The position numbers and the translations under genes are program-made. Below the pieces are notes generated by a model. It was not told the origin of the DNA, made no database searches, and was given only the letters and a program-made list of their open reading frames with translations. From Sphaerisporangium rubeum (GTDB lineage: Bacteria; Actinomycetota; Actinomycetes; Streptosporangiales; Streptosporangiaceae): a DNA stretch of 64,000 nucleotides. The stretch lies in assembly GCF_014207705.1 (NCBI RefSeq), contig NZ_JACHIU010000001.1, forward strand, positions 992,001 through 1,056,000. Direction: 5' to 3'. Shown in pieces: positions 22,788 to 47,985 of the stretch. Within the stretch, counting starts at the first letter, position 1. The number at the start of each line of letters is the position of its first letter.

Positions 22788-23450
<663 letters not shown>

Positions 23451-30036: not shown

Positions 30037-31191
30037 TCATTCCTCGCGCCAGATCGGTACGAGCAAGTTCGGATCAAACTTCTTCCGTCCCTTGCCCGCC
30101 GGATGGACGACCACCGCGTGCAACGCCTCTTTGACGTGGCCACGCTTCTGGGACAGTGCCAACCCGCCCTCTTCCTCCGGCATGTACCAGCGCTTACGGA
30201 TCTCCGCTGTGTCCTTTGTCGCACGAGCCTGCCGCCGCTCGTTCGACGCCTTGAACCTGGCCGACTCCGCGCGAAGATCAGCGATCGACTTCTCCAGCCG
30301 AGGAAGCAAGCGGAAGTAGTGGTCGTTCGTCACCTGGCCCGCCTCCCACTGCTGGGTGAGCGCTTCTAGCCGGTTCCTCGCGTCCTGGTATTCCTGCTCC
30401 CGAGGCCACGCCGTCACCGTGTCGGAGCTGGTGAACGTCGCCTCTTCCTCCATCTTCGTGAGCACCAGTTCCGAAATGAAGAAGTCAACGAGGTCACCGC
30501 GTCGGCCCACGCCGCCGCACCCGCCTTGCGTCTTGTCCGGGCACACGTAGATGTGCTGCTTGCAGTCACGTTGGTGGGTGACACGCATGGACGCGTTGCA
30601 GGTCGCGCCGTCCGGCTTCACACGTCCACATCGGAGGATGCCGGTGAGGAGGTACCGGTATTCCGTAAAGTCGGGGGGACGAATATCGCCGATCTTGCCA
30701 CCTGGGTAGACCTGACGACCCCGGCGGGCATCCATGATGGCCTTGATCGCCAACCACTGATCAGGGGTGATGACGGGCTCCCATCGCCCCACGACCGGAT
30801 CACCGTTGGTGTCCCGGACCAGTTCCCCGCCGAGCTGACGCCAGCCGCACATGCGAGGGTTGTCCAGCGCCAACCGCAGCGATCTCGACGTCCAGAGGTT
30901 GCCGCGCGACGTCATGATCTCCCGGCGTTGCCATTCAACGACAATCGAGTGGATTGAACGTCCCCGGATGAAGTCGATCGCCGCTTGTCGGAGAAGCGGC
31001 GCTTCGTCAGCGTCCAAGGTCAAGCGATCGGCCTGCCAGCCGAACGGCCGAGTCCCACCGACCGGTTCGCCCCTCTCGGCGCGGGCCCGGTGGGAACTCC
31101 GCATGCGGCGTTGCATCTTCCGGACCTCCATCTTCGAGATGACCACCCCGAAGAGCCCCATGCTCTCGACGTCTTCGCTGTACAGGTTCTT
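30037..31191 (-). pseudogene. intA, C-terminal part (DNA-binding region), separated by Element II
   Basis: Large serine recombinase fragment of 384 codons: from NLYSEDVESMGLFGVVISKM (end of the catalytic domain and long helix) through the recombinase domain, zinc ribbon (ILRCGRVKPDGATCN ... YVCPDKTQGGCGG) and coiled coil. An in-frame TAG stands just before KNLYSED, at the junction with Element II. The missing 125 N-terminal codons, with the catalytic serine, are at 47611-47985. Joined at the shared CTT the sequence reads FADAKQINKNLYSEDVES without a break, giving 508 residues, the length of IntB plus three. The internal ATG 31161 could still start an inactive fragment. Confidence 0.88.
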
Positions 31192-31213
31192 CTAGTTCTG
31201 CATCTCAGGCATG
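31189..31213 (+). other. attL of Element II
   Basis: Left junction: intA sequence up to CTT (31189-31191), then element sequence containing the half-palindrome TCAGGCATG (31205-31213). The matching half is at 47593-47601. Confidence 0.85.
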
Positions 31214-31235
31214 ATGTCCACAGGAGGTGCGCAGG

Positions 31236-32753
31236 ATGCCGACGAATCCCCCCGTCCCCGTGGTCTCGTACGCACGTATCTCGGCCGACACCAAACGGGA
31301 CGAACACGGTGTTCAAGATCAGCACAAGGTCAACCGCCAGACGGCCGCACGGTGCGGCTGGACAGTAGTCCACGAGTTCACCGACAACGACAAGTCGGCT
31401 GCCAAGGAAGGCATCGTCCGCGACGGTTTCGAAGCGATGGTCCGCGCACTGCGCGCCGGCAAGCTGCCGGACGGCACACCTGTCCAAGGTGTCGTCATCG
31501 TGGCGGAAGACCGATTGGCGCGGCGTCCAGGGGACTATGAGCGCTTCGTGGACGCGTTCACCTTCCAGGACGGCCGCGTGTTCGCCGATGCCAGGGGCAG
31601 CAAGGATCTGTACAGCGAAGACGTCGAAAGCATGGGACTGTTCGGGGCGGTGATCTCCAAAATGGAGGTACGGAAGATGCAGCGCCGCGCACGGCGTTCG
31701 CATCGCGCTCGCGCCGAAGCGGGGACCCCGTCCGGCGGGCCGCGTCCCTTCGGGTGGAACGAAGACCGGCTGACGTTGAACGAGCGTGAGGCCGAACTCC
31801 TTCGACAGGCGGCGCGGGCCTTCCTCGGCGGACGTTCCATGTACTCGATCACCCGCGAGTGGCAGAGGCATGGCGTGAAGACGTCGCTCGGTAACGACTG
31901 GAGCGTGCGCTCCCTCAAAGTCGCGCTCATGAACCCCCGCACCTGTGGCCTGCGGGAGTTGGACGGGGAACTGGTTCGCGGGACGGACGGTGAGCCGATC
32001 GTCGGCAGGTGGGCGACGATCCTCACGCGGGAGGAATGGAACGCGATCCGTGCCGTCTTCAACGCGCGGAAGGGCCACTTCATCACGAGGGATATGCAGA
32101 TCGGGAGGGCTCACCCTGCCGACTACCGTGACCCGGCCTATCTCCTGTCCGGCATCATTCGCTGTGGTCGCATCAAAGAAGACGGAAGCCTCTGCAACAC
32201 CCCCATGCGGGTCAACGTGAAGAAAGGGGCGGGCCACCACGCGTACGTCTGCCGGAGCAAGGCGGAGGGTGGCTGTGGTCGTTGCAGCCGGCGGGGAGAC
32301 CTGGTTGACCTCTTCGTGACCGAAGCCGTTCTGGCGAAGCTCGAAGAGGCGACTTTCACCGAACCCGAGGAAGGCGGCAACCCGCACGCGGAGGAACGGC
32401 TCAAGGCGGCCCAAGAACGTTTGGACGGGCTGATGGCGCAATGGAACGCGGGTCACATCGGGAATGAGTTGTTCTTCAAGCTCGCTCCGGGTCTGGAGCA
32501 GGAGATAGCACGACTGCGCGGAGAAGTCAGCAAGAGCGCCGCCTCGGCCGAGTTGCGCCGCAAGCGGGCCGTCACCGATGTCGCGGAGATCCGGCGGCGG
32601 TGGTTCCTACCTGAGGCGGAAGGCGGGTTGCCGATCTCTCAGAAGAGGACCTACATCCGCGAGGCTTTGCACACGGTGATCGTCCGTCCGGCCGGCAGAG
32701 GTCAGAAGATCTTCAACCCTGACCTGCTGGAACCGGTGTGGCGTGAGGACTGA
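31236..32753 (+). CDS. large serine integrase IntB of Element II
   Basis: 505 residues. N-terminal resolvase domain with the catalytic serine in VVSYARISAD (Ser 16) and HGVQDQHKVN, ADDRL-type motif VVIVAEDRLARRPGDYERF, then the long helix (EDVESMGLFGAVISKMEVRK), recombinase domain, zinc ribbon (IIRCGRIKEDGSLCN ... CGRCSRRG) and a C-terminal coiled coil. ATG 31236 follows AGGAG by 9 bases; GTG 31227 is too close to it. It catalyses integration of Element II; the target used here was the gene of its relative IntA. Complete and apparently intact. Confidence 0.93.
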   Translation: MPTNPPVPVVSYARISADTKRDEHGVQDQHKVNRQTAARCGWTVVHEFTDNDKSAAKEGIVRDGFEAMVRALRAGKLPDGTPVQGVVIVAEDRLARRPGDYERFVDAFTFQDGRVFADARGSKDLYSEDVESMGLFGAVISKMEVRKMQRRARRSHRARAEAGTPSGGPRPFGWNEDRLTLNEREAELLRQAARAFLGGRSMYSITREWQRHGVKTSLGNDWSVRSLKVALMNPRTCGLRELDGELVRGTDGEPIVGRWATILTREEWNAIRAVFNARKGHFITRDMQIGRAHPADYRDPAYLLSGIIRCGRIKEDGSLCNTPMRVNVKKGAGHHAYVCRSKAEGGCGRCSRRGDLVDLFVTEAVLAKLEEATFTEPEEGGNPHAEERLKAAQERLDGLMAQWNAGHIGNELFFKLAPGLEQEIARLRGEVSKSAASAELRRKRAVTDVAEIRRRWFLPEAEGGLPISQKRTYIREALHTVIVRPAGRGQKIFNPDLLEPVWRED

Positions 32754-32756
32754 CAA

Positions 32757-32970
32757 GACGTCCTAGACGTCCTGGACGCTTCGAGGGTTGTCGCCTCTGT
32801 CTGAGGGGTGACAACCCTCTTGCTTTTTGCCGTCATGGAAAGTGTGGGGCCGGACTTCTAGGGACGTCCCAGGACGCGGACGGACGTCGGCGGACATCCC
32901 AATCGGTGTCCGACCGGGGAACCCTCGCCTGGTGCCATGCGTTGTTGAAGTGGTACACCTGAAGACGTCC
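32757..32970. repeat. GACGTC repeat cluster, Element II
   Basis: GACGTCC at 32757-32763 and 32766-32772, GGGACGTCCC at 32861-32870, GGACGTC at 32882-32888 and GACGTCC at 32964-32970, with degenerate copies between. Same motif and same position (between int and rep) as in Element I. Confidence 0.6.
32783..32829 (+). terminator. Rho-independent terminator after intB
   Basis: GAGGGTTGTC (32783-32792) pairs perfectly with GACAACCCTC (32810-32819), followed by TTGCTTTTTG. A canonical stem plus U-tract, 30 bases past the intB stop, separating int from the rep operon. Confidence 0.88.
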
Positions 32971-33279
32971 AAGTCACCCGATCACGAGAGACAGGAACAG
33001 CGAGAAACCGGCCCGCGAACTGTTCGGCGCGAATAATCTACCGGGAAATATAACTTAAATACATGGTTGCCGTTCCACTGGAGGGACCCGGCCCAGTGGT
33101 AGGCCAAAAAATTGGCGCGCCAACCGGTCTATAAATCATCGCGCACATACTTTTAAACACTCCATATTTCTCTCGCTGAAAGCATCATCGTCACCCCATG
33201 CCGCATGTTCGGCATGCTCGCGATGGTGCTTTCGCCGTCCCGTGCCACGGTGGCTCCCTTCGGCGAAAGGAGTCCTCCA
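32971..33279 (+). promoter_or_regulatory. leader of the small gene and rep, Element II
   Basis: No gene supported. AT-rich core near 33030-33070, then AAACACTCCAT (33155-33165) and CTCTCGCTGAAAGCA (33170-33184), both conserved in Element I. A short ATGCCG/CGGCAT hairpin follows near 33200. Probable promoter and origin region of rep. Confidence 0.5.
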
Positions 33280-33462
33280 CTGGTACCCGACGAACTGGTG
33301 CCACACCTCGCACTTGCTCAGGAGTGGGGCAAGCGCAAAGCTGCCGAGTCGCCGCAATGGTCCGCCGACAAGTGGCGACGTGTCGCGGTCGTCTTCGGCG
33401 TCGAAGTAGGTCCGGAACACGTGGAGAAACCGGCCCCTGACCGGGACGGGACGGCCGCATGA
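33280..33462 (+). CDS. conserved small gene before rep, apparent CTG start (60 aa)
   Basis: Counterpart of the gene at 29336-29521: VPDELVPHLALAQEW, GKRKAAESPQWSADKWRR, then a variable acidic tail. CTG 33280 is 7 bases after AAGGAG. Here an in-frame ATG exists at 33205, but the residues it would add are not conserved in Element I, where no ATG is available, so CTG is preferred. The stop overlaps the rep ATG. No known family. Confidence 0.62.
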   Translation: MVPDELVPHLALAQEWGKRKAAESPQWSADKWRRVAVVFGVEVGPEHVEKPAPDRDGTAA

Positions 33463-34874
33463 GCGACGTCCCTGGTTTCTCTCCTGAGGTCTTCGCCGCT
33501 GCTCGGCGTGCGGCCATGCCGGACTTCCCCCGGTGGCAACAGATGGTGCGCGCCACTGGCGGCTGTGCCGAACCGATCCGGCTGCAAGGTCACCGGATCA
33601 CGTTCGACAACGCGTTAGAGGTCCTGGACGTGTACCGGACGGCCGATGAACCAACCGGGTACCTGCTCACCGCCTGCGGTAACCGTCGTGCCTCCCGGTG
33701 TGCGGCGTGTGCCGAGGTGTACCGGGACGACACCTATCACCTGATCCTGTCCGGCCTGCGTGGCGGCAAGGGTGTCCCGGAGGACGTCAGCGCTCACCCT
33801 CGGGTGTTCGCCACGTTCACCGCTCCGTCGTTCGGCGCGGTCCACGTCCGGCGGGAAAAGAACGGCAAGCCACTGCCGTGCCGGCCACGCCGCGACAACC
33901 CCGTGTGCGAACACGGACGGCCCCAAGGGTGCCGGGCACATCACGGCGAAGATGACCCCCAGGTCGGGCAACCGGTCTGCGTGGACTGTTACGACTACGT
34001 CGGCGCGGTGCTGTGGAACGCGCACGCCGGTGAGCTGTGGCGGCGGTTCACCCAAGCGCTTCCGGCCGCGTTCGCGCGACGGCTGGGCATCACCCGTGCG
34101 GCCCTGCGCAAGCGCATGAGGCTGTCGTACGCCAAGGTTGCCGAGTATCAAGCGCGGGGCCTGGTCCACTTTCACGCCGTGATCCGCCTGGACGGACCGG
34201 ACGGCCCTGCCGACCGTCCCCCCGGCTGGACGACCGTCCCGGCCCTTCAGGACACCATCAGGGAAACGGCGGCGTCCATCACAGTCCCGGTCCCGGAGGA
34301 CGGCTCGGGGTTCGTCGGCCGATGGGGAAGTCAGCTCGACGTGGAACCCATCTATGTGTCCAGCACCCTGGAAGGCGTGGCGGACCAGCGGGTCGCGTCC
34401 TACATTGCCAAATACGCCACCAAAGGGGCCGAATCCGCGGGGACGGTGGACCGTCCGATCCGTGACGTCAGATACGTATCCGCTCTGGAGGTCACCGAAC
34501 ACGCGCGGCGCATGATCTATACGTGCTTCGTCCTGGACGGCCAATCGGCGTTCGGGTCGTTGCGGCTGCGGCAGTGGGCTCACATGCTCGGCTACCGGGG
34601 CCACTTCTCCACCAAGAGCCGTCATTACTCCACGACCCTCGGCGCGCTGCGTCAGGCTCGGGCCGAGTATCAGGCGCAAGCGTCCCGTGAGCGGCGGGGC
34701 CTGCCGGACCCTGGTACCCGTGAGACGGTCACAGCAGGACAGTGGCGCTACGTCGGCAGCGGACATCGCTACGGGGAACACTTCTGGGCTGAGCTGGCAC
34801 GACAGCGCATCTCGACGGCGCGCCGGATCGCACGCGAGCAACAACGCCAGGAGTCGGCGAGTGAGGGGGACTGA
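33459..34874 (+). CDS. RepSA-type rolling-circle replication initiator, Element II
   Basis: 471 residues, about 85 percent identical by eye to the Element I protein. Same cysteine-rich segment (CGNRRASRCAAC), HUH-type motif VHFHAVIRLDG and tyrosine motif YIAKYATKG. Presumed nickase that replicates the excised element. ATG 33459 overlaps the stop of the small gene. The differences from the other copy are spread through the protein, so this is an old divergence, not a fresh duplication. Confidence 0.88.
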   Translation: MSDVPGFSPEVFAAARRAAMPDFPRWQQMVRATGGCAEPIRLQGHRITFDNALEVLDVYRTADEPTGYLLTACGNRRASRCAACAEVYRDDTYHLILSGLRGGKGVPEDVSAHPRVFATFTAPSFGAVHVRREKNGKPLPCRPRRDNPVCEHGRPQGCRAHHGEDDPQVGQPVCVDCYDYVGAVLWNAHAGELWRRFTQALPAAFARRLGITRAALRKRMRLSYAKVAEYQARGLVHFHAVIRLDGPDGPADRPPGWTTVPALQDTIRETAASITVPVPEDGSGFVGRWGSQLDVEPIYVSSTLEGVADQRVASYIAKYATKGAESAGTVDRPIRDVRYVSALEVTEHARRMIYTCFVLDGQSAFGSLRLRQWAHMLGYRGHFSTKSRHYSTTLGALRQARAEYQAQASRERRGLPDPGTRETVTAGQWRYVGSGHRYGEHFWAELARQRISTARRIAREQQRQESASEGD

Positions 34875-35070
34875 CCGCTGACGTAGTGGCGTGGCCGGCG
34901 GAATGCCGTAGATACCCGAATGGTGATCGGGGGGGAGTTCCGCCGGCCCCACCGTCTTGCACGTGGGCCACCCACAGCAACCCGCCTGCCTGTCCGTCCC
35001 GTCTGCCGTCATCCCGCCCCTTGGGGCAAGCGGGCCAGGGGCAGGGGTGCCAGGTGGAGCCCCCTACTGG

Positions 35071-36764
35071 GTTCTGGTTCGTTTTTGGTGGTTGGTTGCG
35101 GGGTGTGATGGTGCTCAGGTGGAGGAGAGGACGCGGCGGCGGAGTAGGTCGAAGTTGGCCCGGCCGAACATCTGGCGTTTGAGCATCTTGATTCTGTTGA
35201 CGTGGCCTTCGACGGGGCCGGAACTCCAGGGGAGGGTGAGGCCGGCGGTTACTGCGGCGTGGTCTCGTTCGATGCCGCGGATGAAGGAGTTCAGGCCGGG
35301 GAGATCGCTGTTTGCGGCCTGGGTGAGCCAGTGGGTGAGCTGGGTGCCGTTGCGTTTGCTCATCATGATGGCGAAGCGGCGGACGTGGCCGGTGAGTGCG
35401 GTCAGCTCGGGGCATCTGCTCAGGATCTGGCCGAGTGCTTGCTGGTGGTCGGGTGTGAGGTTGTCGGGGTGGGTCGTGATCCAGGTGACCACGGTGTGGA
35501 CCGGTGGAGGTGGCGCGGACGCCGGGTGGTGCCGGGCCCAGGTACGCAGGCGGCGGACGTAGTCGCGGACGTTGTGGTAGCTGCCGTTGTAGCCCTGGGC
35601 GTGGATCTCCTCAAATAGCCGGATCGGTCGGGTGACGCCTGCGGTGAAGCGTTCGTGCAGGTAGGGCTTGAAGTTGTCGAGGTTGCTCGGCCGGGCGGCC
35701 TGGGTCAGCTTGTCGTCGACGGTAGCCGCGCGGGCGTAACGTTGCACGGTTCCTCGCGCAAGGCCGAGCCTGCGTGCGATCGGTTTGATGCCGTGCCCCT
35801 GGGCGAGTAGTTCCTGAACCAGCGCGTAGCGCTCGCGGATCCGCGTGTTCAGCCGGGTCTGCATCTGTAGTTCATCGCCGCCGGCCGGTGCCGGTGGCCG
35901 CTGGGGGTCGTTCGCGGTTGCCGAGGAGGGTTCGGGCAGGCAGGCGCGATGCTGGATGACGCATTTCTCGACGGCTTCGATGAGGTTGTGCCAGACATGC
36001 CATCGGTCGGCCACCTGGACCGCGTGGGGTGCCGCGCTACGGGCGGCCTCGGCATAGCTGCTCGCCCGGTCCCGGCAGATGACCTCGACTCCCGGGTGTG
36101 CGGTCAGCCACGTGGCCAGCGTGTGAGCGTCCCGGCCGATCAGCAGTTCGATCGGGCGGCGGGTCATCATGTCCACCAGGACCGTTCCGTATACCTTGCC
36201 ACGGCGCAGTGAAAAGTCATCGACTCCCAGGACCACCGGCGCCGTGACAGGCGGCTCCGGCAACGCGCGGATCACCCGCAGCAGTGTCGTCCTGCTGGCC
36301 GGTGACCCAAGCACCCGGGCCAGACGAGCCCCGGCACGACCGGCCAGAGCCAGCGCGATCGACGCCAAGGCCATGGTCAGCGGCAGACTGCGCCGCCCGT
36401 GCCGGTAGGTCACCTCCGGCACCTGCTCAGCGAAGATCTTGCGCCCGCAGCTCGGATTGACGCACACGAACCTCCGTACCTCCAGCTCGATCACCGCGGG
36501 CTCGCCACCCACCGCCAGATCACCCAGCCGGCGCCTGTAGCGGCCATGCACCCGCAACGACAGAACGCCACATGCCGTACAAGCCGCCCCCTGACCGACC
36601 GTACGCCCCACTATCCGCAGGCCAGAGGGCATTCGATCGACCCGCTCCACGGAAACCCCACGCAGATGCGGAAACATCACCTCAAGATCGCCAAAACCGC
36701 ACAGCACACATGATCACAGCATTGATCACCGACCGTCACCCGATCACCAAAAGTGAACCAGAAC
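35071..36764 (-). mobile_element. complete ISL3-family insertion sequence (1694 bp)
   Basis: Terminal inverted repeats GTTCTGGTTCGTTTTTGGTG (35071-35090) and CACCAAAAGTGAACCAGAAC (36745-36764) match at 18 of 20 positions. CCCTACTGG flanks both ends (35062-35070 and 36765-36773) as a 9-base direct repeat; ISL3 elements usually make 8 bases, so one base may be chance. One intact transposase gene inside. It lies downstream of rep in Element II. Confidence 0.88.
35115..36677 (-). CDS. ISL3-family transposase
   Basis: About 520 residues. N-terminal zinc-finger region (CTACGVLSLRVHGRYRRRLG, then CVNPSCGRKIF), DDE domain with VLGVDDFSLRRGKVYGTVLVD and CRDRASSYAEAARSAAP, an HTH insert (ARRLGLARGTVQRYARAA) and the C-terminal WSSGPVEGHVNRIKMLKRQM with the conserved glutamate. 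Intact. ATG 36677 is chosen; GTG 36707 is possible. Confidence 0.9.
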   Translation of the reverse strand: MFPHLRGVSVERVDRMPSGLRIVGRTVGQGAACTACGVLSLRVHGRYRRRLGDLAVGGEPAVIELEVRRFVCVNPSCGRKIFAEQVPEVTYRHGRRSLPLTMALASIALALAGRAGARLARVLGSPASRTTLLRVIRALPEPPVTAPVVLGVDDFSLRRGKVYGTVLVDMMTRRPIELLIGRDAHTLATWLTAHPGVEVICRDRASSYAEAARSAAPHAVQVADRWHVWHNLIEAVEKCVIQHRACLPEPSSATANDPQRPPAPAGGDELQMQTRLNTRIRERYALVQELLAQGHGIKPIARRLGLARGTVQRYARAATVDDKLTQAARPSNLDNFKPYLHERFTAGVTRPIRLFEEIHAQGYNGSYHNVRDYVRRLRTWARHHPASAPPPPVHTVVTWITTHPDNLTPDHQQALGQILSRCPELTALTGHVRRFAIMMSKRNGTQLTHWLTQAANSDLPGLNSFIRGIERDHAAVTAGLTLPWSSGPVEGHVNRIKMLKRQMFGRANFDLLRRRVLSST

Positions 36765-36940
36765 CCCTACTGGAGGAACGACCTGGTACCCCTGCCCCTG
36801 GTCTGCTTGGCTTTGCCCTGGATGACGGCAGCGGGTCGGACAGGCTTCCACAGCAACCCGCTACGGTCTTTCGGCAACCCCTGCACTGCTCCCGGAGCCT
36901 GATTCCCCCGCCGGAGGCGCATCCCTGTCGAACACGCAAA

Positions 36941-36962
36941 AGCCCCCACCGGAGTAGGGGCT
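36941..36962 (-). terminator. terminator of the XRE-DUF397 operon
   Basis: AGCCCC (36941-36946) and GGGGCT (36957-36962) form a stem; read on the minus strand it is followed by TTTT. It lies 31 bases past the DUF397 stop. Confidence 0.6.
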
Positions 36963-37115: not shown

Positions 37116-37463
37116 ATGTCTCTGATGGTGATGAAGAACTATCCGGCCGAGTTCAAGGCCGACGCGGTGGCGCTGGTGCTGTCGAGGCCGGACCGGACGA
37201 TCACGTCGATCGCGCGGGATCTGGGGGTCAGCCGCGAGACGCTGCGGGTGTGGGTACGCGCCGCGCAGGCTCGGGGTGAAGGCGGGCAACGAGCGGCCGG
37301 CGGGGGCAGGACCGGCAAGGACACGCCGGCCGGGCACCTACCCTCGGACGACGTGCTGGAACAGGAGAACAAGCAGCTCAAGGCGCGGATCCGGGAGCTG
37401 GAGCAAGAGCGGGACATTCTGCGTAAGGCGGCCAAGCTTTTCGCGGGCGAGACGAACTGGTGA
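37116..37463 (+). CDS. IS3-family transposase OrfA
   Basis: 115 residues. HTH of the IS3/IS911 OrfA type (YPAEFKADAVALVLSRPDRT, RDLGVSRETLRVWVRAAQ) and a C-terminal leucine-zipper-like helix (LEQENKQLKARIRELEQERD). It binds the IS ends. The last four bases overlap the GTG start of orfB; the fused OrfAB transposase is normally made by -1 frameshifting in this zone. Confidence 0.9.
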   Translation: MSLMVMKNYPAEFKADAVALVLSRPDRTITSIARDLGVSRETLRVWVRAAQARGEGGQRAAGGGRTGKDTPAGHLPSDDVLEQENKQLKARIRELEQERDILRKAAKLFAGETNW

Positions 37464-38350
37464 ACCGCTTCCAGTTCGTTGAGGATCACAAGGCGCTCTA
37501 CGGGGTGAAGCGGTTGTGCCGGGTGCTGCAGGTGTCACGCTCGGGCTTCTACCGATGGTTGAAGGGCGCCGCGGCGCGGCTGGCCCGCCGCCAGGCCGAT
37601 GAGCAGCTGGCCGAGCAGGTACGCAGGATTCATGCCGAGCATGACGGCACCTACGGCTCGCCTCGGATGACGGCCGAGTTGCGTGCGGCCGGGATCGTGG
37701 TCAACCACAAGCGGGTGGAACGGGTGATGCGCGAGCACGGCATCGCCGGGCTGCGTCTGCGCAGAAAGGTCCGCACCACCATCCCGGAGCCGGATGCGGC
37801 ACCCGTGCCGGACCTGATCCAGCGCGACTTCTCCGCCGGGCTGCCGAACACCCGCTACGTCGGCGACATCACCTACCTGCCCGTCGGTGGCGGCCGGTTC
37901 CTCTACCTGGCTACCGTGGTGGACTTGTGCTCACGCCGGCTGGCGGGCTGGTCGATCGCCGATCACATGCGCACCGAGCTTGTCGTGGACGCGCTGCAGG
38001 CCGCGGCGCACACCCGGGGCGGCCGTCTGGACGGCGCGGTGTTCCACAGCGACAACGGGGCACAGTACTGCTCGCGGGAGTTCGCGCGGGTCTGCAGCCG
38101 GCTCGGCGTCACCCGCTCGCGCGGCGCGGCCGGGACCAGCGCCGACAACGCCGCCGCCGAGTCCTTCAACGCGAGTCTGAAACGCGAGACGTTGCAGGGC
38201 GCGCACCACTGGCCCGACGCCCGCACCGCCCGCCTGGCCGTCTTCCGCTGGATCACCCGCTACAACACCGTCCGGCGGCATTCCAAACTCGGCCAGCTCA
38301 GCCCGATCGCCTACGAGAAGACGCCAGATAACCTGAAGCCTGCCGCCTGA
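37460..38350 (+). CDS. IS3-family transposase OrfB (DDE catalytic part)
   Basis: 296 residues. HTH_21-type region (HAEHDGTYGSPRMTAELRAA), rve integrase core with D in YVGDITYLPV, D in VFHSDNGAQYCSREF and E in AAESFNASLKRE, ending RRHSKLGQLSPIAYE. All three catalytic acidic residues are present, so the element is probably active. Confidence 0.93.
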   Translation: MNRFQFVEDHKALYGVKRLCRVLQVSRSGFYRWLKGAAARLARRQADEQLAEQVRRIHAEHDGTYGSPRMTAELRAAGIVVNHKRVERVMREHGIAGLRLRRKVRTTIPEPDAAPVPDLIQRDFSAGLPNTRYVGDITYLPVGGGRFLYLATVVDLCSRRLAGWSIADHMRTELVVDALQAAAHTRGGRLDGAVFHSDNGAQYCSREFARVCSRLGVTRSRGAAGTSADNAAAESFNASLKRETLQGAHHWPDARTARLAVFRWITRYNTVRRHSKLGQLSPIAYEKTPDNLKPAA

Positions 38351-38539
38351 AATCGGTGTTCACGTTCATGGGGGAAGCCCCGGTGACTACGGGGCCGGTC
38401 GGGGTCTTGCTGTCCCTGACTCCGATGATGCCGGGCAGGTTGGATGCCACCTCGACGCAGTCACCCCCGTTGTTGCTGTAGGTGCTCTTGCGCCAGCGCA
38501 AGCGAGGCGGGCCAGTCTCCGTCCCTGCGGCTTCAGAGT

Positions 38540-39397
38540 TCATGATCCCCACCCTTCAGTGGATACACGAGCGAGGAGGTTCCGGGTCTGATCCGGATCA
38601 AGTGCTCTGGCTCGCAAGTGGTTGAACACCAGGTTATACCGGTCAATTGCCACTCTTTCTTCCAGATACACAGCACCAACCTGGTTCTCCAGATACACCA
38701 CGTCCGGGTCTGGTGCTTCGGGGAAGCCCAGGGAAACGAAGCCTCCGTCCATGGCGGGGTGCGGCCCTGCGCTGAACGGAAGCACTTGAAGAGTGACGTT
38801 CGGACGACGCGACATCTCGATCAGGTGTTGCAGTTGAGCACGCATCACGTCCGCGCCACCCACAGGCCGCCGGACAGCGGCTTCGTTCACAATCACCCAC
38901 AGCTTGAGCGGGTTGTCCCCGGTGACCCGCTCCTGCCTGGCCACCCGGAAGTCGATCTTTCGAGTGATCTCCTCAGTACTCGCCCCTGTAGCAGCGGTAG
39001 CCAGGAACGCGCCGTAGTACTCCGGCGTCTGGAGTAGCCCAGGTATCAGCTCAGAGTGGTAGCTCCGCACCTCGGCGGCTTCCGCCTCCAACCCCACGAA
39101 CACTTGGAACCATTCGGGAACCACGTCCCCATAGGTGTGCCACCAACCACGCTGCCGGGCCTGTCGCGCCAACGTCAGAAGCTCGTCCCGAGCGTCCCCG
39201 TGGATCTCGTACACATCGAGCAATGCCCGTAGGTCGATCGCTCTGATTCCACGCCGGCCGGTCTCAATGCGACTCACCCACGACGGATCAAGTTCGAGCC
39301 TGTCGGCCACAGCTTCGGCCGTAAGGCCCTTCTCCTTCCGGATCCGGCGCAGCTCGCTGGCAAGTCGTCTCCGCCTCACTGTGGGACTGCTCCCCAT
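38540..39397 (-). CDS. WhiJ-like XRE regulator with DUF5753 domain
   Basis: 285 residues. HTH (LASELRRIRKEKGLTAEAVA, ELDPSWVSRIETGRRGI) followed by the DUF5753 domain: YHSELIPGLLQTPEYYGAFL, VIVNEAAVRRPVGG and TLQVLPFSAGPHPAMDGGFV. These regulators pair with DUF397 and ATPase genes in actinomycetes (WhiJ/Scr1 type). Start at ATG 39397 from the HTH position. Followed by the broken DUF397 gene, which probably disables part of its switch. Confidence 0.9.
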   Translation of the reverse strand: MGSSPTVRRRRLASELRRIRKEKGLTAEAVADRLELDPSWVSRIETGRRGIRAIDLRALLDVYEIHGDARDELLTLARQARQRGWWHTYGDVVPEWFQVFVGLEAEAAEVRSYHSELIPGLLQTPEYYGAFLATAATGASTEEITRKIDFRVARQERVTGDNPLKLWVIVNEAAVRRPVGGADVMRAQLQHLIEMSRRPNVTLQVLPFSAGPHPAMDGGFVSLGFPEAPDPDVVYLENQVGAVYLEERVAIDRYNLVFNHLRARALDPDQTRNLLARVSTEGWGS

Positions 39398-39567
39398 GGT
39401 CAACCCGATCACCTCATCTCTGACAGCAGTGTGCCGTGCGAGATCACCCCATGGGACCACCATGGGCAAATCGGAAACTTGTCGATGGCATCTTGCCATC
39501 TCCAGGTTGACGACTGCACCATGGTACCGGCAAGAGGCCATCCCCACCCGACTTTGGGGAGTCAACA

Positions 39568-39906
39568 ATGGGCGACAAGGTCCCCGGTGCAATGGCGTCT
39601 CCGCTCAGGAGAACGAGAGGTGATTCCGCCACGACAAAACGCGAACCCCGCACCATCAAGGAGATTCAGTACACCCATCTCGTACGACTGGCTTGGGAGC
39701 TGAACAAGCGCGGCGTCGGCACGGTGCTCAGCATCCCCACGAACAACGCGGTAACGCTCTTGTTCCCTCGCGCTTCGCAGAGGGTAAAAATCATGGTCGT
39801 ACAAATTAACCAAGTCTGGTTCTACGCCTGGGGCCGGAGTCGTGCTCATCGCGTGAGCACCCGCGATCCTGACGCCGTCGAACGAGTTTGGGAACTAGCC
39901 CAATGA
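39568..39906 (+). CDS. small basic protein of unknown function (112 aa)
   Basis: Divergent from the WhiJ-like gene (170-base gap) and overlapping the next gene by ATGA. The conserved-looking core is LVRLAWELNKRGVGTVLSIP and VKIMVVQINQVWFYAWGRSR, probably a small alpha/beta fold. Small genes of this kind often sit in WhiJ/ATPase loci; I cannot name a family. Confidence 0.6.
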   Translation: MGDKVPGAMASPLRRTRGDSATTKREPRTIKEIQYTHLVRLAWELNKRGVGTVLSIPTNNAVTLLFPRASQRVKIMVVQINQVWFYAWGRSRAHRVSTRDPDAVERVWELAQ

Positions 39907-40443: not shown

Positions 40444-41210
40444 AGACCGTGTTCTACGTGGTGAGCCGGGCAAACCGCTTGTAGCAGCACAGTGCTGCCG
40501 CGAGGCCGAGAAAAGCCAGGTAGTTGCCGGAGTAGCGTTCGTAGCGGATGGTGAGTCGTCGATAGCCGGTCAGTCAGGACATGGTCCGTTCGATCACCCA
40601 GCGATGCCGGCCTAATCGCTGACTGGACTCGACTCCCCGGCGGGCGATACGAACGGCGATGCGCTTGCCGCGTAGCCACCGGCGCAGGTCATCGCGGTCA
40701 TACGCCTTATCCGCGTGGAGCTTGCCGGGCTTGATGGGACGGCCATGGCGAGGGTGGTGTCTCATTTGGAGTTCGGTCACCATGGGCTTGAGGCGCTCGC
40801 TGTCGTGGGTGTTACCAGATGAGACACCGACCACCAGGGGCAGCCCGGACCGGTCGGACAGGATGTGCATCTTCGAACCCGGCTTGCCCCGGTCCACCGG
40901 GCTCGGTCCTGTATCGTCGCCCCCTTTTTCGCCCGTACGTGGGCCAAGTTCAGCACGACACGAGACAAATCCAGCAGGTCGGCGGCAGCAAGTCTGTCGA
41001 GCACGGCATGGTGCAGCCTCCTCCACACACCGGCCCGCGACCAGATCACAAACCGGCGGTGCACGGTGGACTTCGATATCCCAAAACACGGCGGCAGGGC
41101 CCGCCAGGCGCATCCGCTCACCAAGACGTAAACGATGGCCGCGAACACCGTTTCATCAGGCGTGTTCTGCGTCCCGCGGGCCGACTCCGGTTGCTTGAGC
41201 CCCACCGGGA
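40444..41210 (-). pseudogene. IS5-family transposase with premature stop and lost 5' end
   Basis: First part VFAAIVYVLVSGCAWRALPP and HRRFVIWSRAGVWRRLHHAV, then after a shift at GCGAAAAAGGGGG the DDE part (PVDRGKPGSKMHILSDRSG, KAYDRDDLRRWLRGK, RRGVESSQRLGRHRWVIERT). The frameshift is normal for the group, but the codon after ERTMS is TGA where the family has Trp; the frame then continues to TAG at 40454-40456. The 3' terminal repeat (AGACCGTGTTCTACGTGGTG) is present at 40444, the 5' end is missing where the protease gene ends. Confidence 0.82.
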
Positions 41211-41215
41211 AAGCG

Positions 41216-43651
41216 TCACATCCAGAACCGTATGTTCGCAGGGATATTGACGATGACAGCAAGGACAAGGGACAGCACGATCAACGCAACGAGGACGGTG
41301 ATGTGACGCGGCCAGGCGGTCTGATACGTAGGTTGCTCGACGGAAATTCCATGCAAAACAGTCCGATGCTGGCGAAGGATCCTGCCGATCCCGGTAGCGA
41401 CCAGGGTTGCGGGAATGGCGGCCAAGAGCCCTCTGGCGAGAATCACCTGTAAATCCGAGGTGTAACTACCGACAGAGAGAACAGGGGCCTGGCATTGCGT
41501 TCCGGGTAAGTTGAAAAGGTCGATGCAGAAGGCGGTCGTCCAGGTGAGAGCTCTGCCCAGCACCGCGATGATGCCGGCTGTCGAGATGGAGAGCAGGACG
41601 AGTGCAGGGCGCAGGCGTGTCGTGACGACCGATGTCGCCGCAGCGGCGGTGGCGAGTCCTAGGGTCGCAACCATGGTGTAGGAGTCTCTCCATATCAAGC
41701 CGAAAAAAGGCGGAGACCCCGAGTCAATCAGATCGTCGCTAGGAATATATCCCCGGGCATCGGGAGCCACAACACCATCCATCAAAAAAGTCAAGCCCAC
41801 GCCGAGGGCAACCACGATCAGACCCGCGCAGAAACCCACGGCCATCGCCCGACCGATCCGAGGCAAGGGCATATTCGCGGACTGGTGACGGGATACCAGG
41901 ATGGGCCCGAGCCATAGAGTAAGGACGGCCGCCACGGTGGGTATCCCGAGTTCCAGACCCAATAGAGCGCTGTTGCTGAACTGGGTCCAATGAGACAATT
42001 TGGCATACCATGCAATGGAAGCGCCCGGGAACGGGTCCGGCCCGGGAGTGACCTTCCAAAATCCGCCCGACCGATCCACGGCGAACCAGATCGAGAAGCA
42101 GGGCGCGGCCGTGACGGCGGCGATGACGATCGTCATGTTGGACACTCGCCGATCGGACGCAACAATGCGGGCGGTGGAAATGATCCATCCCGTCAAAAGA
42201 AGACCACCTACGAGCAGCAGGAGAACGGTAGCCAAGGTCCGGACTGCGGTGAAGGCCAAGCCGAAGTGTGCCCATCCGTCGGATGTGCCCGCCGGCTCAA
42301 GGCTGTTTCCTATGACGAAGCCGACAGCGAGCATCGCGGCCGGGGCAAGCCAGGCATGCGGGCCTGGCCACAGAGTCGCACCGGCGGTCGCGCGGTACAG
42401 GCCCGCGGCGAGCAGGCCGGCCATGAGGGCCCCGGCTGGGACAGCGCTCAGCATCGTTGCCGTCAACGATTTCTCTAACATCACCACGGATATGGCGAAT
42501 CCCAGTGACCGTGTGAGCAGACCTGCGGCAAGGCCGGCACCGACCATTTCCCAGAGACGGATACGCGTCAAACGCCCCGGGTCCTTTATGGTGGCGAGGC
42601 GCACGCCGGGCCAGGGATGAGGGCTGAACGAGGTGCGCCACCGTCGCGTCGACGGCAGCGGCAGAGCAACAATGACACGGGGGAGGATCTCACCCTGTCC
42701 CTCCAGTGCCGCAGCCATCGCGTCCGCGTGAACCTCGCGCGTACGGAAAATAGCATTGCGGATCATATAGATCAGTAACGCCGTCGAAGCCACCAGCGTG
42801 AGCCAGTAACTGGTGTCGATGGGATCAGAGATCAGGAGCGGAACGCTCCATTTCCAGTTCCACGGAAGGTTGACCAGCCCAGGCTGGAGCATCATCACCG
42901 CGAACGGAACGACTGCCGTCACGATGAATGCCCGCCAGAGAGCGATGGTCGCGTAGGTCCTGCCCACATCACGGTTACGCAGATGAGCCAGCTCGTGGAG
43001 AACGACTGCGCGGAAACCTGGCCGGTCGGCAATGAAGCGGGTGACCAAGCCTGCGTCGAGACGTACCTGATGACGGAGAAACGTGCCGAAGACCTGGCCC
43101 GTTGCCGAGGCCGAATAGGGGGCCAGAAGCCAGCGAGGCGGGCGGGACAGTCCGGCCTGCCGAGACAGATCGTTGAGTTCTCCGATGAGATCCGGTGATT
43201 CGTTCTGATTCAGTGGAGTCAGCCGGGAACGTCGGATGATCCATGGCGGATGCAGTGCGTACAACAGGATAGCGAACACGAATTCGGCCATCAGCCCCAG
43301 CCCGGCCCCGGCCGCCCACCGCAGATTCGACGGCATTATGCAGCGTTCGAGGTACTCCAGGACCCTCTGATCTCCAACTCGTGCAGGGCTCAGACTATCG
43401 AGGAGATCGTCGAGGCCCACGGCGGGTCGCCCGCGGATCAGCGCAGCCTCGTTTACGCATCGTTGCGTGGTCGCATTGATGTCCTCGCCCCGCTCAGGCA
43501 CCCTGCTGTAAAGCATCATGAACAATTGGGCACTGATCGCGGACATGGCGACGATCAGGAGAGTGAACTGGATGCCGGTTCCCGAGCGTGTTCGCAGCAG
43601 TGATCGAACCCGTGCCGTGTTATCTGTTTGCGGTGCTCCAGCTTCCGGCAT
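41216..43651 (-). CDS. multi-pass membrane protein with M48 metalloprotease domain
   Basis: 811 residues. Two N-terminal helices, then an M48 (HtpX/Ste24-like) domain with the zinc motif VVLHELAHLRNRDVGR and the third ligand region FRTREVHADAMAAAL, and a long C-terminal half with about ten more helices. This is roughly twice the length of HtpX. Start ATG 43651, 20 bases after the partner gene. Function is unknown; a membrane protease with its own partner in the cargo of an element could serve in defence or stress. Catalytic residues look complete. Confidence 0.8.
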   Translation of the reverse strand: MPEAGAPQTDNTARVRSLLRTRSGTGIQFTLLIVAMSAISAQLFMMLYSRVPERGEDINATTQRCVNEAALIRGRPAVGLDDLLDSLSPARVGDQRVLEYLERCIMPSNLRWAAGAGLGLMAEFVFAILLYALHPPWIIRRSRLTPLNQNESPDLIGELNDLSRQAGLSRPPRWLLAPYSASATGQVFGTFLRHQVRLDAGLVTRFIADRPGFRAVVLHELAHLRNRDVGRTYATIALWRAFIVTAVVPFAVMMLQPGLVNLPWNWKWSVPLLISDPIDTSYWLTLVASTALLIYMIRNAIFRTREVHADAMAAALEGQGEILPRVIVALPLPSTRRWRTSFSPHPWPGVRLATIKDPGRLTRIRLWEMVGAGLAAGLLTRSLGFAISVVMLEKSLTATMLSAVPAGALMAGLLAAGLYRATAGATLWPGPHAWLAPAAMLAVGFVIGNSLEPAGTSDGWAHFGLAFTAVRTLATVLLLLVGGLLLTGWIISTARIVASDRRVSNMTIVIAAVTAAPCFSIWFAVDRSGGFWKVTPGPDPFPGASIAWYAKLSHWTQFSNSALLGLELGIPTVAAVLTLWLGPILVSRHQSANMPLPRIGRAMAVGFCAGLIVVALGVGLTFLMDGVVAPDARGYIPSDDLIDSGSPPFFGLIWRDSYTMVATLGLATAAAATSVVTTRLRPALVLLSISTAGIIAVLGRALTWTTAFCIDLFNLPGTQCQAPVLSVGSYTSDLQVILARGLLAAIPATLVATGIGRILRQHRTVLHGISVEQPTYQTAWPRHITVLVALIVLSLVLAVIVNIPANIRFWM

Positions 43652-43671
43652 CAGCGGGGTGGCGGAGGCAC

Positions 43672-44151
43672 TCACTCGAGGGTGTCCCCGAGTAGAGCGC
43701 GACCCACTACCGCGTTCGCCAGTAGATCCGCCTTCGTCTTGGGTGTGCCCAAGCTGACAGCCGTGTCGCGGACGATGTCCCTTACCCTTGCCCACTGTTC
43801 AGGGGTCAGTGGCAGAGGTCCTTCGTCCTCGGGCTCCTGGTCGGTGCCGAAGAGCCTGCGTATCTGGCGGATGGTCGATTTGGTGTGGTGTAACAGACCT
43901 TCGGCTATCAAGGTGGTCACCACCCCATGCGATGCCTCTAGAAGAATCGGGGTGGCAAGCATGGCGACCTCGGCCACACCGAAGCCCAGCAACCCACTGC
44001 CTTTGTCGTCACCCGCCAGGGCGCGTTTTCGGTCGGCGAAATACGCGCGGGACAACGGGTCGAATATCGGCACCTCACTCGGTGCGGCCCGTTGTACCAT
44101 TACCCGGGCCACCTCGGTCACCAGCGCGTCCTCCGCCAGTAACTCGGTCAT
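43672..44151 (-). CDS. partner protein of the M48 membrane protease (159 aa)
   Basis: Starts MTELLAEDALVTEVARVMVQ after a GAGGAGGAGG site. A helical protein with a Gly/Ala-rich amphipathic stretch (LLGFGVAEVAMLATPILLEA) and a segment HTKSTIRQIRRLFG, ending in an acidic, regulated-looking tail. Immediately upstream of the protease on the same strand. No known family; the pairing is inferred from spacing only. Confidence 0.65.
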   Translation of the reverse strand: MTELLAEDALVTEVARVMVQRAAPSEVPIFDPLSRAYFADRKRALAGDDKGSGLLGFGVAEVAMLATPILLEASHGVVTTLIAEGLLHHTKSTIRQIRRLFGTDQEPEDEGPLPLTPEQWARVRDIVRDTAVSLGTPKTKADLLANAVVGRALLGDTLE

Positions 44152-44680
44152 CGAGTCCTCCTCCTCATGGCATCGATGGCCATGTCCCACCCCCTGAAGC
44201 GGACCCTCGTATCCCGCCCTGAGGAACCCATGCTCGGGAGCCAGCCTCCTTCAGTCATGCTCGAACAGTATCCCGTGAATCATGATAGAGAGAGTATTTC
44301 GTGAAATCACGGGCCTCACCCACCCATTCAGTTGTCACCACCACCGTTCACATGTCCTAATAGCAGGCAATCATCGGAGAAATCGGACATCGCCTGCTGT
44401 CAAAATAGGCACCCGTGACCGCGCCAGCTGATCGTGTGCGCCTGCAAGCACGGGCTCGCGCGATGAAGGCCGCCGGCACCCTCAGACGCACACGATGGGC
44501 CGACGAGAGTCGGCGCGAAGATCGTCGAAGGCCTGTTCTTCTCGGGCGTCGCCGTCAAGCCCGTCATCCCAAACGGCTATGCCAGCGCCAGGATCGCCTC
44601 TAGAACCCGCAGGTGGTGGGGCTGCGGCGGACGATGTCCCGTCGCGGGCCGCGACGGCGCCGACCTGCGAAGCTCCACGG
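44152..44680. other. gap with promoter of the protease operon and decayed coding traces
   Basis: 44240-44410 is AT-rich and probably holds the promoter for the minus-strand pair. In 44510-44600 one plus frame reads GAKIVEGLFFSGVAVKPVIP, which looks like protein, but it is broken on both sides. No intact gene. Confidence 0.4.
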
Positions 44681-44941
44681 GACAAGGGCTACGACCATCC
44701 CCACCTGCGCGCGTTCCTGCGCGGCCGGGACATCGTCCCGCGCCTCGCCCGCCGTGGGATCGAGTCCAGCCAGCGCCTGGGGCGTCACCGGTGGGTCGTC
44801 GAACGGACGGTCTCCTGGCTGGCCGGCTGTCGCCGCTCACACCGGCGCTACGAGCGCCGGGCCGACCATTTCGCGTCCTTCGTCGCCCTCGCTGCGGCCC
44901 TCATTTGCTACCGCCGACTCGCAAATGAGTCACCGTCTTAG
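44681..44941 (+). pseudogene. C-terminal fragment of an IS5-family transposase
   Basis: Reads DKGYDHPHLRAFLRGRDIVP, GIESSQRLGRHRWVVERTVS and WLAGCRRSHRRYERRADHFA to TAG. This is the end of a different IS5-group transposase from the one at 40.4 kb. The N-terminal two thirds are missing. It abuts the short inverted-repeat element at 44940. Confidence 0.8.
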
Positions 44942-45142
44942 ACCGTGTCCTACGTGGTGAACGGTCGTTAGCGGGGCATGGGGATGAAGGAGTGAGGTGA
45001 CCGAACTCCACACCACCCTCGCCATGGCCGTCCCATCAACCGCTACGAACGCTACTCCGGCAACTACCTGGCTTTCTCGGCCTCGCGGCAACTCTGTGCT
45101 GCTACAAGCGGTTTGCCCGGCTCACCACGTAGGACACGGTCT
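44940..45142 (+). mobile_element. 203-bp internally deleted IS5 derivative (MITE-like)
   Basis: Perfect 21-base terminal inverted repeats (44940-44960, starting AGACCGTGTCCTACGTGGTG, and 45122-45142). Inside, the first part matches the middle of the IS5 transposase of 40.4 kb (VTEL...HGRPIK region) and the second part its last codons (YERYSGNYLAF, CCYKRFAR), so it is that element with most of the gene deleted. Same ends as the 40444 terminus, so it could be moved in trans. Confidence 0.82.
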
Positions 45143-45396
45143 TAGATTGACAGCTCGGCACAACTGACAGGCGCGCCCATCCCTGACCTTGCGAGGGTCG
45201 GGGCATTGTCGTGTACGGGCCGCAGTGATCCGGCGTGCGGGGAGCTGGTCACGACGTAGAGAGCTAGTCGCCCTGCTCCGGCGTGTGATGGCGGACGTCG
45301 GCGTGAGGTGTTGGGCGGCCCTGTTGCTGTACTTTCCTGCTGTACGTCTTCCCGCTGGCATGGCACCTTGAGACCAGGCGGCGGACGGAGAACGCC

Positions 45397-45720
45397 ATGC
45401 GTGTCACTGGATGGAACAACGGTAGCCACCATCCCAACGGCTCGGGCTACGGACTACGAGTCTCGAAAGCGGATCGAGATCGGCTCTTCAACCCACGCTG
45501 GCGTATCGTGATCTTAAATCTAGAAGATGACCAAGCTGTCATAGTCCCGGTCGCACCGTCCTTCTGGCGAGGTTGCACCGAACTCAGGAGCCGAGACATC
45601 GGTCGCTGGCTGATTAAGCGTAGCCTTGCTCCGTGGCCTAGGGGAAAGCCACCGCTGCTCATCATGGAGCAGGTGGTGGCGAACCAATTTGTTGTATCGC
45701 CGATCCCCCTGAGAACATGA
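45397..45720 (+). CDS. small protein of unknown function (107 aa)
   Basis: MRVTGWNNGSHHPNGSGYGL start, then FNPRWRIVILNLEDDQAVIV and RDIGRWLIKRSLAPWPRGKP. A compact beta-rich domain without membrane segments. Convergent with the ATPase gene, only 3 bases between stops. GC content is lower than the chromosome. In many bacteria small proteins with a WNNGSHH/GYG start sit in defence or element cargo; no family name is certain. Confidence 0.65.
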   Translation: MRVTGWNNGSHHPNGSGYGLRVSKADRDRLFNPRWRIVILNLEDDQAVIVPVAPSFWRGCTELRSRDIGRWLIKRSLAPWPRGKPPLLIMEQVVANQFVVSPIPLRT

Positions 45721-45723
45721 GAC

Positions 45724-47082
45724 TCAATTCATGCCGTGAGTACGCCAATATAGAACACGCTGACCAACAGCGGAATTGTTCGCCTGGCCAGCTATTATAG
45801 CCTTAACTTCCTCTGACTTAGGGTCCACATCTGCATCCACTCTCCACCTGAGGAAGAAGGCAAAGAAGGGATCGGAGATGTATAGCCTAGAAAGGCTCTC
45901 ATCGTAATCTACGACCGGCTCTCCCTCGATGTGTACGCGCGCAATTTTCGACATCTCTTCCAAGACGCGAGTGATCTCCTGCCGTTGGGGCACTTCACTG
46001 CTCAGGATTTCGCGCAATGATGCGCGTAGAGCTTCGTATGTCACAGAAGTAAGCGGGCCGGTGTGGGCAATACCCGCAAGGACAACCCCGTAGATATCCG
46101 TTGCAGTGCCGCTTTTAAGAGTGCGCACCTTCCGGTCCGTACGCTGACGTGGACCTTGCACGAGCATATCGAAGGCTGTTCGAGAGGTATTCGATGCACG
46201 TGCCGCGAAGAAGTCGTCCCATATGGGGGCGGTAATAATGGCGCCTTCTTGCGACCGTTCCCGCACTCCATTCTCTTTGCAAACGTGCAGGCAAAATGTC
46301 TGCATCAAGTGCGGGCTTGAGAAGCTCTCGCCGGCCAACCTCTCGGCAACTTCACCATTCGGATCTTGCACATTTAGGGCTTCGAATCCCTTATGCGCGA
46401 TCGCAAGCAGCTCGTTTTTAGACCAGAAACCTACCTCCAACTGCTCGACACGGCCAGTCATCTCCTTCTCGACTCGTACAACATCGTACGCTCGATGAGG
46501 AACAGCTATGACGATTACCGGCAAGCCATCGAAGACGAGGTCCTTCAGCCCACGCACAATCTGAAGCTGAACGTCAGGCTCAATATAGTGAAAGTCATCA
46601 ATCACCAAAGAGTGCAGGCCACTCCGCAAGGCATCTCGGGCTACCGAGGAGATGGATCTACTTCTAGCGGTGCGATCACTCGTGGTGTAGGAGGTTGCCG
46701 ACTGACCTTCCTTCGCCCCTTTCAGTACACCAACACCCAACTCGCCTTTCGTTGTGCGACTATCCGTCTCGGAGGAGGTCTGTGTTGTTTCCACTTGCGT
46801 GATGAGTCCTAGGTAATCCGCGATCAGCGACCACAGTTCATCAAGGGATGATATCGTCCCCCCGGAGAGCCAAATGGCGTCCTCTCTCGCAAGAACACTC
46901 TTAACCAAAACCGTTTTACCGGTCTTCGTAGGTCCAGATATCGAAAGAATTCGGTGCCGCTCGTCAAGGTAGTCCTGGATCTTCTGTTCTAGCCTGTACT
47001 CCTCTCGGCTGATGTAGGTGAGCGTGGGAAGACCCCCTGCCACGAAGACTTGTCCTACCTTGACATTTCCTGACCCTGCCAT
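45724..47082 (-). CDS. P-loop ATPase of the AAA/STAND type (452 aa)
   Basis: Walker A in ISGPTKTGKTVLVKS (about 48-62), Walker B in SLVIDDFHYIEPD, an arginine-finger-like region, and a winged-helix-like C-terminal part (FFAFFLRWRVD). The N-terminus has GNVKVGQVFVAGGLPTLTYI. Between Walker A and B there is a Ser/Thr-rich insert (about 100-145). Lower GC than the surroundings and placed at the right end of Element II next to attR, a usual cargo position. A sensor or defence ATPase is possible; nothing here proves it. Confidence 0.75.
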   Translation of the reverse strand: MAGSGNVKVGQVFVAGGLPTLTYISREEYRLEQKIQDYLDERHRILSISGPTKTGKTVLVKSVLAREDAIWLSGGTISSLDELWSLIADYLGLITQVETTQTSSETDSRTTKGELGVGVLKGAKEGQSATSYTTSDRTARSRSISSVARDALRSGLHSLVIDDFHYIEPDVQLQIVRGLKDLVFDGLPVIVIAVPHRAYDVVRVEKEMTGRVEQLEVGFWSKNELLAIAHKGFEALNVQDPNGEVAERLAGESFSSPHLMQTFCLHVCKENGVRERSQEGAIITAPIWDDFFAARASNTSRTAFDMLVQGPRQRTDRKVRTLKSGTATDIYGVVLAGIAHTGPLTSVTYEALRASLREILSSEVPQRQEITRVLEEMSKIARVHIEGEPVVDYDESLSRLYISDPFFAFFLRWRVDADVDPKSEEVKAIIAGQANNSAVGQRVLYWRTHGMN

Positions 47083-47562
47083 GGCTTCAGTCTAAGGCAG
47101 GATGCGCACGCCCATGGAAGATCGTCACACGCCACGATTTGCACCTTATGTGGTTTTTCTTCCTGATCGACATCAGCGACCGGGCCATGGCAGGTTTCGA
47201 GCGATGCTAAGCCGCATCTTGCTCCGCGCCGTACGTCCGGCCTGGCGGCTCGACACTACGGTTCACAGCAGCCGATCGCTGGCCAACTGTGGCGAGGCGA
47301 AGTGGGTGATCGTCACGGCGTTCAGTGACCCTCTGCCGGCTTCTGGGCGCGCGGGGCGGTGCGTGCCCGGACCGGCCGAAGAGCCGCAGCCGGGCACGCA
47401 GACCGCCGGCGCGCCCGGCGGGCCGTGAAGCGGACCGCCCTTGACCCTGTAGAGAAAGTCGTCGCCGGATCGGGGCGGGCTCAAGATCGGCCATAGCTGG
47501 AAGTTTGGGAGGTCGGGACGAATGCGCAGCTCAGCAAGCACGTTGGTCGGGCGGGGAATGAT
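47083..47562. repeat. right end of Element II with dispersed repeat, copy C
   Basis: No gene. On the minus strand 47510-47320 contains GATCTTGAGCCCGCC, CTTTCTCTACAGGGTCAAGG and GCGGCTCTTCGGCCGGTC, in the same order as the repeat after msrA (23470-23650). Upstream 47083-47200 is unremarkable. Confidence 0.55.
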
Positions 47563-47985
47563 CTAGGCGGCCAGAACGTAGGCCGTTCTCTTCATGCCTG
47601 AAGTGAAGGGCTTGTTGATCTGCTTCGCGTCCGCGAAGACGTAGCCGTCGTTGTACGTGAACGCTTCCACGAAGCGCTCATAGTCGCCAGGACGGCGGGT
47701 TAATCGATCATCGGCGACGATCACGACACCCCGAACCGGCGTGCCGTCGACCAGCTTCCCCACGCGAAGCGCCCTCAGCATGGTTTCGAAGTCATCCCGC
47801 ACGACGTCAGCCTTTGCCGCTGACTTGTCGTTGTCCGTGAACTCATGCACGACGGCCCAGCCATGCCGCCCCGCTGTCCGCCGGTTGATCGCGTGCTGGT
47901 CCTGAACACCGTGTTCATCACGCCGTGTATCCGCCGAGATGCGAGCGTAGGAGACGACGGGAACGGCCGGGGGAATCTGGTCCAT
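47563..47985 (-). pseudogene. intA, N-terminal part (catalytic domain), separated by Element II
   Basis: ATG 47985 follows GGAGGTGCTC. Codons 1-125 (47985-47611) encode the resolvase domain with the catalytic serine in VVSYARISADTRRDEHG and VVIVADDRLTRRPGDYERF, ending FADAKQINK. From 47610 the frame runs into Element II for 15 foreign codons and stops at 47563. The remainder of the gene is at 30037-31191. The gene reads inward from the msrA-side border of Element I, so IntA is the integrase that used msrA. Without the DNA-binding part it cannot work unless Element II excises. Confidence 0.9.
47593..47613 (+). other. attR of Element II
   Basis: Right junction: half-palindrome CATGCCTGA (47593-47601), then the shared CTT (47611-47613), after which intA sequence resumes on the minus strand. 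Confidence 0.85.

Follow-up and report, generated by a model that had tools for sequence, protein, structure and literature searches.

The locus analysed here raises the question of how the integrase gene of one mobile element came to be split by a second element carrying an integrase of its own, and why that gene was chosen as the integration site. The window, a 64,000-bp stretch of DNA, is part of the 7.5-Mb genome of the soil actinomycete Sphaerisporangium rubeum, which is assembled as one contig and is 99% complete. The nested insertion is genuine: element II, 16.4 kb long and equipped with an intact integrase (IntB) and a RepSA protein, interrupts the integrase gene intA of element I. The minus-strand intA lies in two parts, of 123 codons (47985-47617) and 384 codons (31191-30037). 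The oppositely oriented intB lies just within one end of element II (ATG at 31236, end at 32753, plus strand). No tRNA or Rfam family was found at the insertion site in the window. The features of the locus are as follows.

22704-23450, plus strand: msrA, the target of element I, with complete 3' end (TIGR00401 and PF01625 over their cut-offs)
23352-23372, plus strand: 21-bp end repeat of element I, in msrA
27933-29339, minus strand: replication initiator of element I, RepSA-type (PF20199, E 1e-155)
30037-31191, minus strand: intA codons 124-507 and stop, with 0 internal stops
31190-47614, plus strand: element II, 16,425 bp with one core copy counted (from the TT core, the attP symmetry and seven relatives)
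31190-31191: crossover core TT, IntB-proximal end (from the relatives' arms and attP symmetry)
31205-31213, plus strand: attP arm TCAGGCATG, 13 bp from the core (from the sequence)
31236-32753, plus strand: IntB, large serine integrase of 505 aa (Resolvase N-terminal, Recombinase and zinc-ribbon domains, all over the Pfam cut-offs)
33459-34874, plus strand: replication initiator of element II, RepSA-type (PF20199, E 1.5e-156)
35115-36707, minus strand: ISL3-type transposase (PF01610)
37116-38350, plus strand: two transposase reading frames (domain matches HTH_Tnp_1 and rve), which we take to be IS3-like
38298-39592, minus strand: DUF397 protein and HTH/DUF5753 regulator (domain matches)
41216-43795, minus strand: membrane protein with an M48 peptidase domain (PF01435)
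45724-47082, minus strand: ATPase similar to the defence candidate PDC-S59 (PADLOC, E 2.9e-30; AAA_16 below the Pfam cut-off)
47563-47616, minus strand: element-encoded tail NKPFTSGMKRTAYVLAA, followed by a stop, on the N part of IntA
47593-47601, plus strand: attP arm CATGCCTGA, 13 bp from the core (from the sequence)
47615-47616: crossover core TT, far end (from the relatives' arms and attP symmetry)
47617-47985, minus strand: intA codons 1-123, the resolvase domain being cut at profile position 104 of 145
48024-48044, plus strand: 21-bp end repeat of element I, followed by the displaced msrA 3' remnant to 48118

A preliminary description of this DNA had placed the crossover at a shared CTT, with an inverted repeat centred on it and a restored integrase frame of 508 residues. 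The repeat, CATGCCTGA (47593-47601) and TCAGGCATG (31205-31213), is present, but its centre is TT rather than CTT. Joining the flanks does give an open serine-integrase frame; however, the true join is at TT and yields 507 aa, reading FADAKQIKNLYSEDVES instead of FADAKQINKNLYSEDVES (508 aa). On the coding strand the core reads AA (TT in plus-strand terms); it occupies 31190-31191 and 47615-47616, and the attP repeat is exactly symmetric about it (13+TT+13). The attP arms were complementary at 20 of 30 positions about the TT core versus 8 of 30 about the core first proposed; 20,000 random pairings from the window gave a mean of 8.3, an SD of 2.5 and a maximum of 18, and the relatives showed complementarity at 15 to 18 of 30 positions. 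Seven relatives inserted in a different gene, for an aldo/keto reductase (AKR), could be delimited on both sides; their far arm always consisted of AA, seven bases and TTC, and their IntB-side arm read CTAN and then AA. The TT join reproduces this seven-base spacing, whereas the CTT join leaves four bases. Similarly, the spacing between ERF and LYxxD was 20 residues in all 30 matches from 36 loci scanned, as it is after the TT join, compared to 21 after the CTT join. The attP symmetry, the arm spacing in the seven relatives and the homologue length thus establish TT as the crossover, which shifts the boundary of element II by 3 bp at one end.

The same junctions bear on whether repeat-mediated recombination, or an assembly artefact, rather than integration separated the two halves of intA. 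The two rep genes do constitute an inverted repeat (1,414 bp, 83%), but the breakpoints lie outside it, at attP arms common to seven relatives; the genome is a single contig with 99% completeness, and both intA halves are contiguous against the same relatives. This explanation therefore retains almost no probability. Both halves matched several of the same intact relatives (e.g., L018, L020 and L022); the first match stops at residue 120 and the second picks up at residue 123. Intact homologues of IntA possess the sequence across the join, with the 20-residue spacing. The proposal that the coding sequence of a related integrase acted as attB for element II was borne out, intA of element I being split as a result.

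IntA occupies a long branch in the integrase tree (0.38). Searches with its C half ranked msrA-type integrases first, and those with its N half ranked L088 and L094 first. A chimera of two integrases was considered on account of this branch; it is not supported and seems unlikely, since several relatives are shared by the two halves and align to both without a break. The cut falls inside the catalytic domain, so that, for as long as element II is in place, element I should not be able to excise with its own integrase. IntA is presumably inactive, and the anatomy implies that element I would be immobilised by element II. Precise excision of element II would restore intA.

Element I encodes a RepSA of its own, and the repeats at its two ends consist of msrA 3' sequence, identical at 21 of 21 positions at the core. 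Full-length msrA lies at the left and a 3' remnant lies beside intA at the right, in the same layout as in msrA-inserted relatives. The sequences at 23352-23446 and 48024-48118 reflect a replacement msrA 3' end supplied by element I; because of this replacement, msrA stays full length despite the serine-type integrase. The inverted repeat formed by the rep genes of the two elements (27931-29344 and 33454-34867, 4.1 kb apart) could support inversion.

IntB is a large serine recombinase, and its relatives were searched in 341 genomes of the family with the best four candidates per genome; 63 genomes had a match at E 1e-50 or better. The 70 loci beyond the window were typed by the sequence adjoining int: 14 lay in an AKR gene (AKR family, PF00248), 16 in msrA (by BLAST) and the other 40 in different or unassigned genes. 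The AKR insertions occurred at the codons NL(L/V)YREE, as recognised by BLAST for 12 loci and by translation for L012 and L013. In a tree of 62 rows (60 loci, IntA and IntB), IntB grouped with 15 relatives, and all 14 with a readable flank sit in the chromosomal AKR gene; the remaining one, L016, ends at a contig end with 48 bp of flank and is outside the 14 typed. The fork of all 16 AKR-type rows had a support of 85/88, and an inner fork of 13 rows including IntB had 100/99. IntB was sister to the integrase of Sphaerisporangium album (L005) with a support of 100/100, and the S. album element, with which the first 3.7 kb of element II shares 77% identity, is inserted in AKR. This grouping and identity indicate that element II is an AKR-type element in an unusual place.

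Ten relatives could be delimited at both ends and measured ~7 to 12 kb each; L012, L015 and L016 (contig ends or short stretches) are outside this set. The far ends of L006/L074 (G308) were not found within the 50 kb examined, nor was that of L011/L077, where the N part of AKR is incomplete. The preliminary description had taken intact relatives ending at other positions as a counter-argument: the relatives of element II in fact terminate in the att sequences seen here, although the gene that they occupy is a different one, AKR. Among the ten delimited elements in AKR, four have a distantly related AKR gene as cargo, 32 to 35% identical to the target (L076, 9373-10296, PF00248; L124, 6898-7818; L125, 9082-10002; L126, 11837-12772), which might compensate for the interrupted target gene. 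L079 carries defence-like cargo at 8667-11699, a Mrr_cat protein with weak NACHT/STAND matches.

The usual target is absent from the S. rubeum genome, where the best match to the AKR gene was 38% identical. An AKR match at E 1e-35 or better was found in 225 of the 341 family genomes and in 9 of 10 other members of the genus. In two genus-mates AKR adjoins a conserved block that the host retains (G000:C1:2928282-2936517), and no AKR was found near this block in the 18 kb examined. The exception in the genus, G217, also lacks AKR and gave no IntB match, which means that AKR loss has other causes too. Since the host is without the usual AKR target, intA most likely represents a secondary (pseudo-attB) site; we consider it probable that IntB used it as such in an AKR-less host. 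Such pseudo-attB integration without the canonical attB has been described for the phiBT1 integrase (PMC5937489). In the proposed mechanism, element II would be an AICE-like element whose IntB would normally target the AKR gene at the codons NL[LV]YREE, with the AA core on the coding strand, and here it would recombine attP with intA at about codons 123/124, which resemble the AKR half-site. IntB presumably catalysed the insertion, and AKR was presumably already absent at that time. The secondary-site reading draws on a single case and on sequence.

The intA site and the AKR attB have in common the AA core and the half-site CTSTACMGCGARGA. A pattern of half-site, core and four free bases, composed after both sites were known, occurred exactly in the whole genome in the intA remnant and in intB only; one mismatch admitted three more places, and the reversed control one place. 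However, a 42-bp matrix built from 23 intact AKR sites gave intA a score of -16, compared to 58 to 74 for true AKR sites and 1.96 for the vacant AKR paralogue of the host. Of the 3,325 AA positions in the window, 4 scored as high as intA or higher, and the attR junction was among these. Because the vacant paralogue outscores intA, likeness alone neither explains nor predicts the choice of intA. The AKR-like half-site in intB lies at 31602-31621, which would in principle make the integrase gene of element II a target for element II itself.

The half-site also suggests another reading, in which the specificity of IntB has shifted to the integrase family, the KDLYSED codons being its true attB and rivals being locked in place. 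Of 56 integrase genes of the family, 41 contain the half-site at the corresponding position and might each act as a site; within the host genome, exact matches are confined to intA and intB. Such an attB, however, would expose intB itself, the closest relative of IntB is inserted in AKR, and an integrase piece adjoins none of the other 70 loci. Furthermore, no other C half beginning at this point was found in the 341 genomes (best five candidates each). We regard the shift as unlikely. The half-site pattern was missing in 6 of 15 integrase genes of the AKR group versus 9 of 41 others; with a pattern composed ad hoc, self-immunity by half-site loss in AKR-type integrase genes was not retained.

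The preliminary description had suggested an element-versus-element weapon or an excision-controlled integrase switch and had called for a search for IntB relatives inserted in integrase genes. In none of the 70 loci did the 400 bp upstream of int contain another piece of an integrase, L016 having been tested with its 48 bp of flank. No other IntA C half starting here, with a frame no longer than the match, was found among the best five candidates in each of the 341 genomes, a search that weak copies may escape. Two N halves ending at about residue 120 were rejected as IntB-type insertions: the frame of L035 is cut beside a Mutator-family transposase gene, and that of L036 runs into unrelated sequence, with the integrase C half absent from the 40 kb examined. 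A selected weapon or switch should recur, and the IntB group is found in AKR (14 of 14); a secondary site is thus simpler than a weapon. As for the switch, in which element II would be a regulated, reversible insertion turning the element I integrase on and off, the intA halves are free of stops and frameshifts and would be rejoined in frame by excision at the core, but this is a property of any precise serine-integrase insertion. The split-intA arrangement was not found elsewhere in the 70 loci or among the best five candidates of each of the 341 genomes, and no directionality factor was identified. The switch is accordingly very unlikely, and fewer assumptions are needed if, with the AKR gene missing from the host, a secondary site was taken opportunistically. 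A dedicated weapon or switch is not supported, and the immobilisation of element I would be a by-product. A broader tendency, by which AKR-type elements entering AKR-less hosts enter the integrase gene of a resident relative via AKR-like catalytic-domain codons and lock that element until the newcomer excises, is unlikely.

Insertion of AKR-type elements also extends the truncated protein of the host by an in-frame tail, which is encoded at the far end of the element. The tail ended in LAA and a stop in 6 of 11 cases read (the window, L073, L075, L076, L079 and L080), with synonymous codon differences only, and was without LAA in the other five (L078, L081 and three Herbidospora cases, L124 to L126); the count omits L132 and L133, which are copies of L080 and L079. 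The six LAA cases belong to one clade of the tree. The tmRNA tag of the host, ADNTRTQGRMALAA, also ends in LAA, and the tail may be a degron supplied on integration. The virally encoded repressor of mycobacteriophage BPs carries an ssrA-like tag that targets it for degradation, and integration takes this tag away (PMC4557955), whereas integration of AKR-type elements would add one.

We compared the two elements with known systems. Element II has an intact integrase and a pSAM2-type RepSA replication protein by PF20199, as expected of an AICE; the NCBIfam RepSA model scored 516 and 521 bits, under its 700-bit cut-off. An FtsK/SpoIIIE (TraB-type) translocase had 16 matches in the genome and none in the window, and neither element was therefore filed as an AICE. 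The combination of a serine integrase and RepSA is nonetheless common to element II and AICEs with serine integrases, some of which insert in protein-coding genes (PMC3218068). AKR and integrase genes are not among the targets noted in the material available from that source, and elements I and II differ from AICEs in having no FtsK/SpoIIIE.

The phiBT1 integrase in Nocardia likewise turns to secondary sites when its host lacks the canonical attB, but as a laboratory vector, whereas element II is a natural element with its site in the integrase gene of another element (PMC5937489). Nested elements are also known: a Tn1806-like ICE lies in snf2 of ICESpy009 (PMC12942858), and IMEs insert in genes of ICEs (PMC5357655). 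As with element II, a gene of one element is the integration site of the other, giving a composite; however, in the cases described there the target is recurrent and is not the partner's integrase gene, while element II is a single secondary-site case. Helper-embedded PICIs similarly reside within a gene of another element that is restored on excision, but 491 further cases and a regulatory role are reported for them, as opposed to one case and no recurrence for element II (PMC10111431). No earlier report of an element inside an integrase gene was among the literature matches listed, many of which concerned HIV, and we do not claim its absence from print. The locus thus offers a natural example, resolved to the base, of how a serine-integrase element may behave in the absence of its attB gene, the secondary site here being the integrase gene of a competitor. 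A single integrase, its attP and two targets would suffice for experiments on how sites are chosen and how elements interfere with one another. The comparison also outlines an actinobacterial serine integrase family whose elements occupy AKR, msrA and further coding genes and whose att sites are evident at the junctions.
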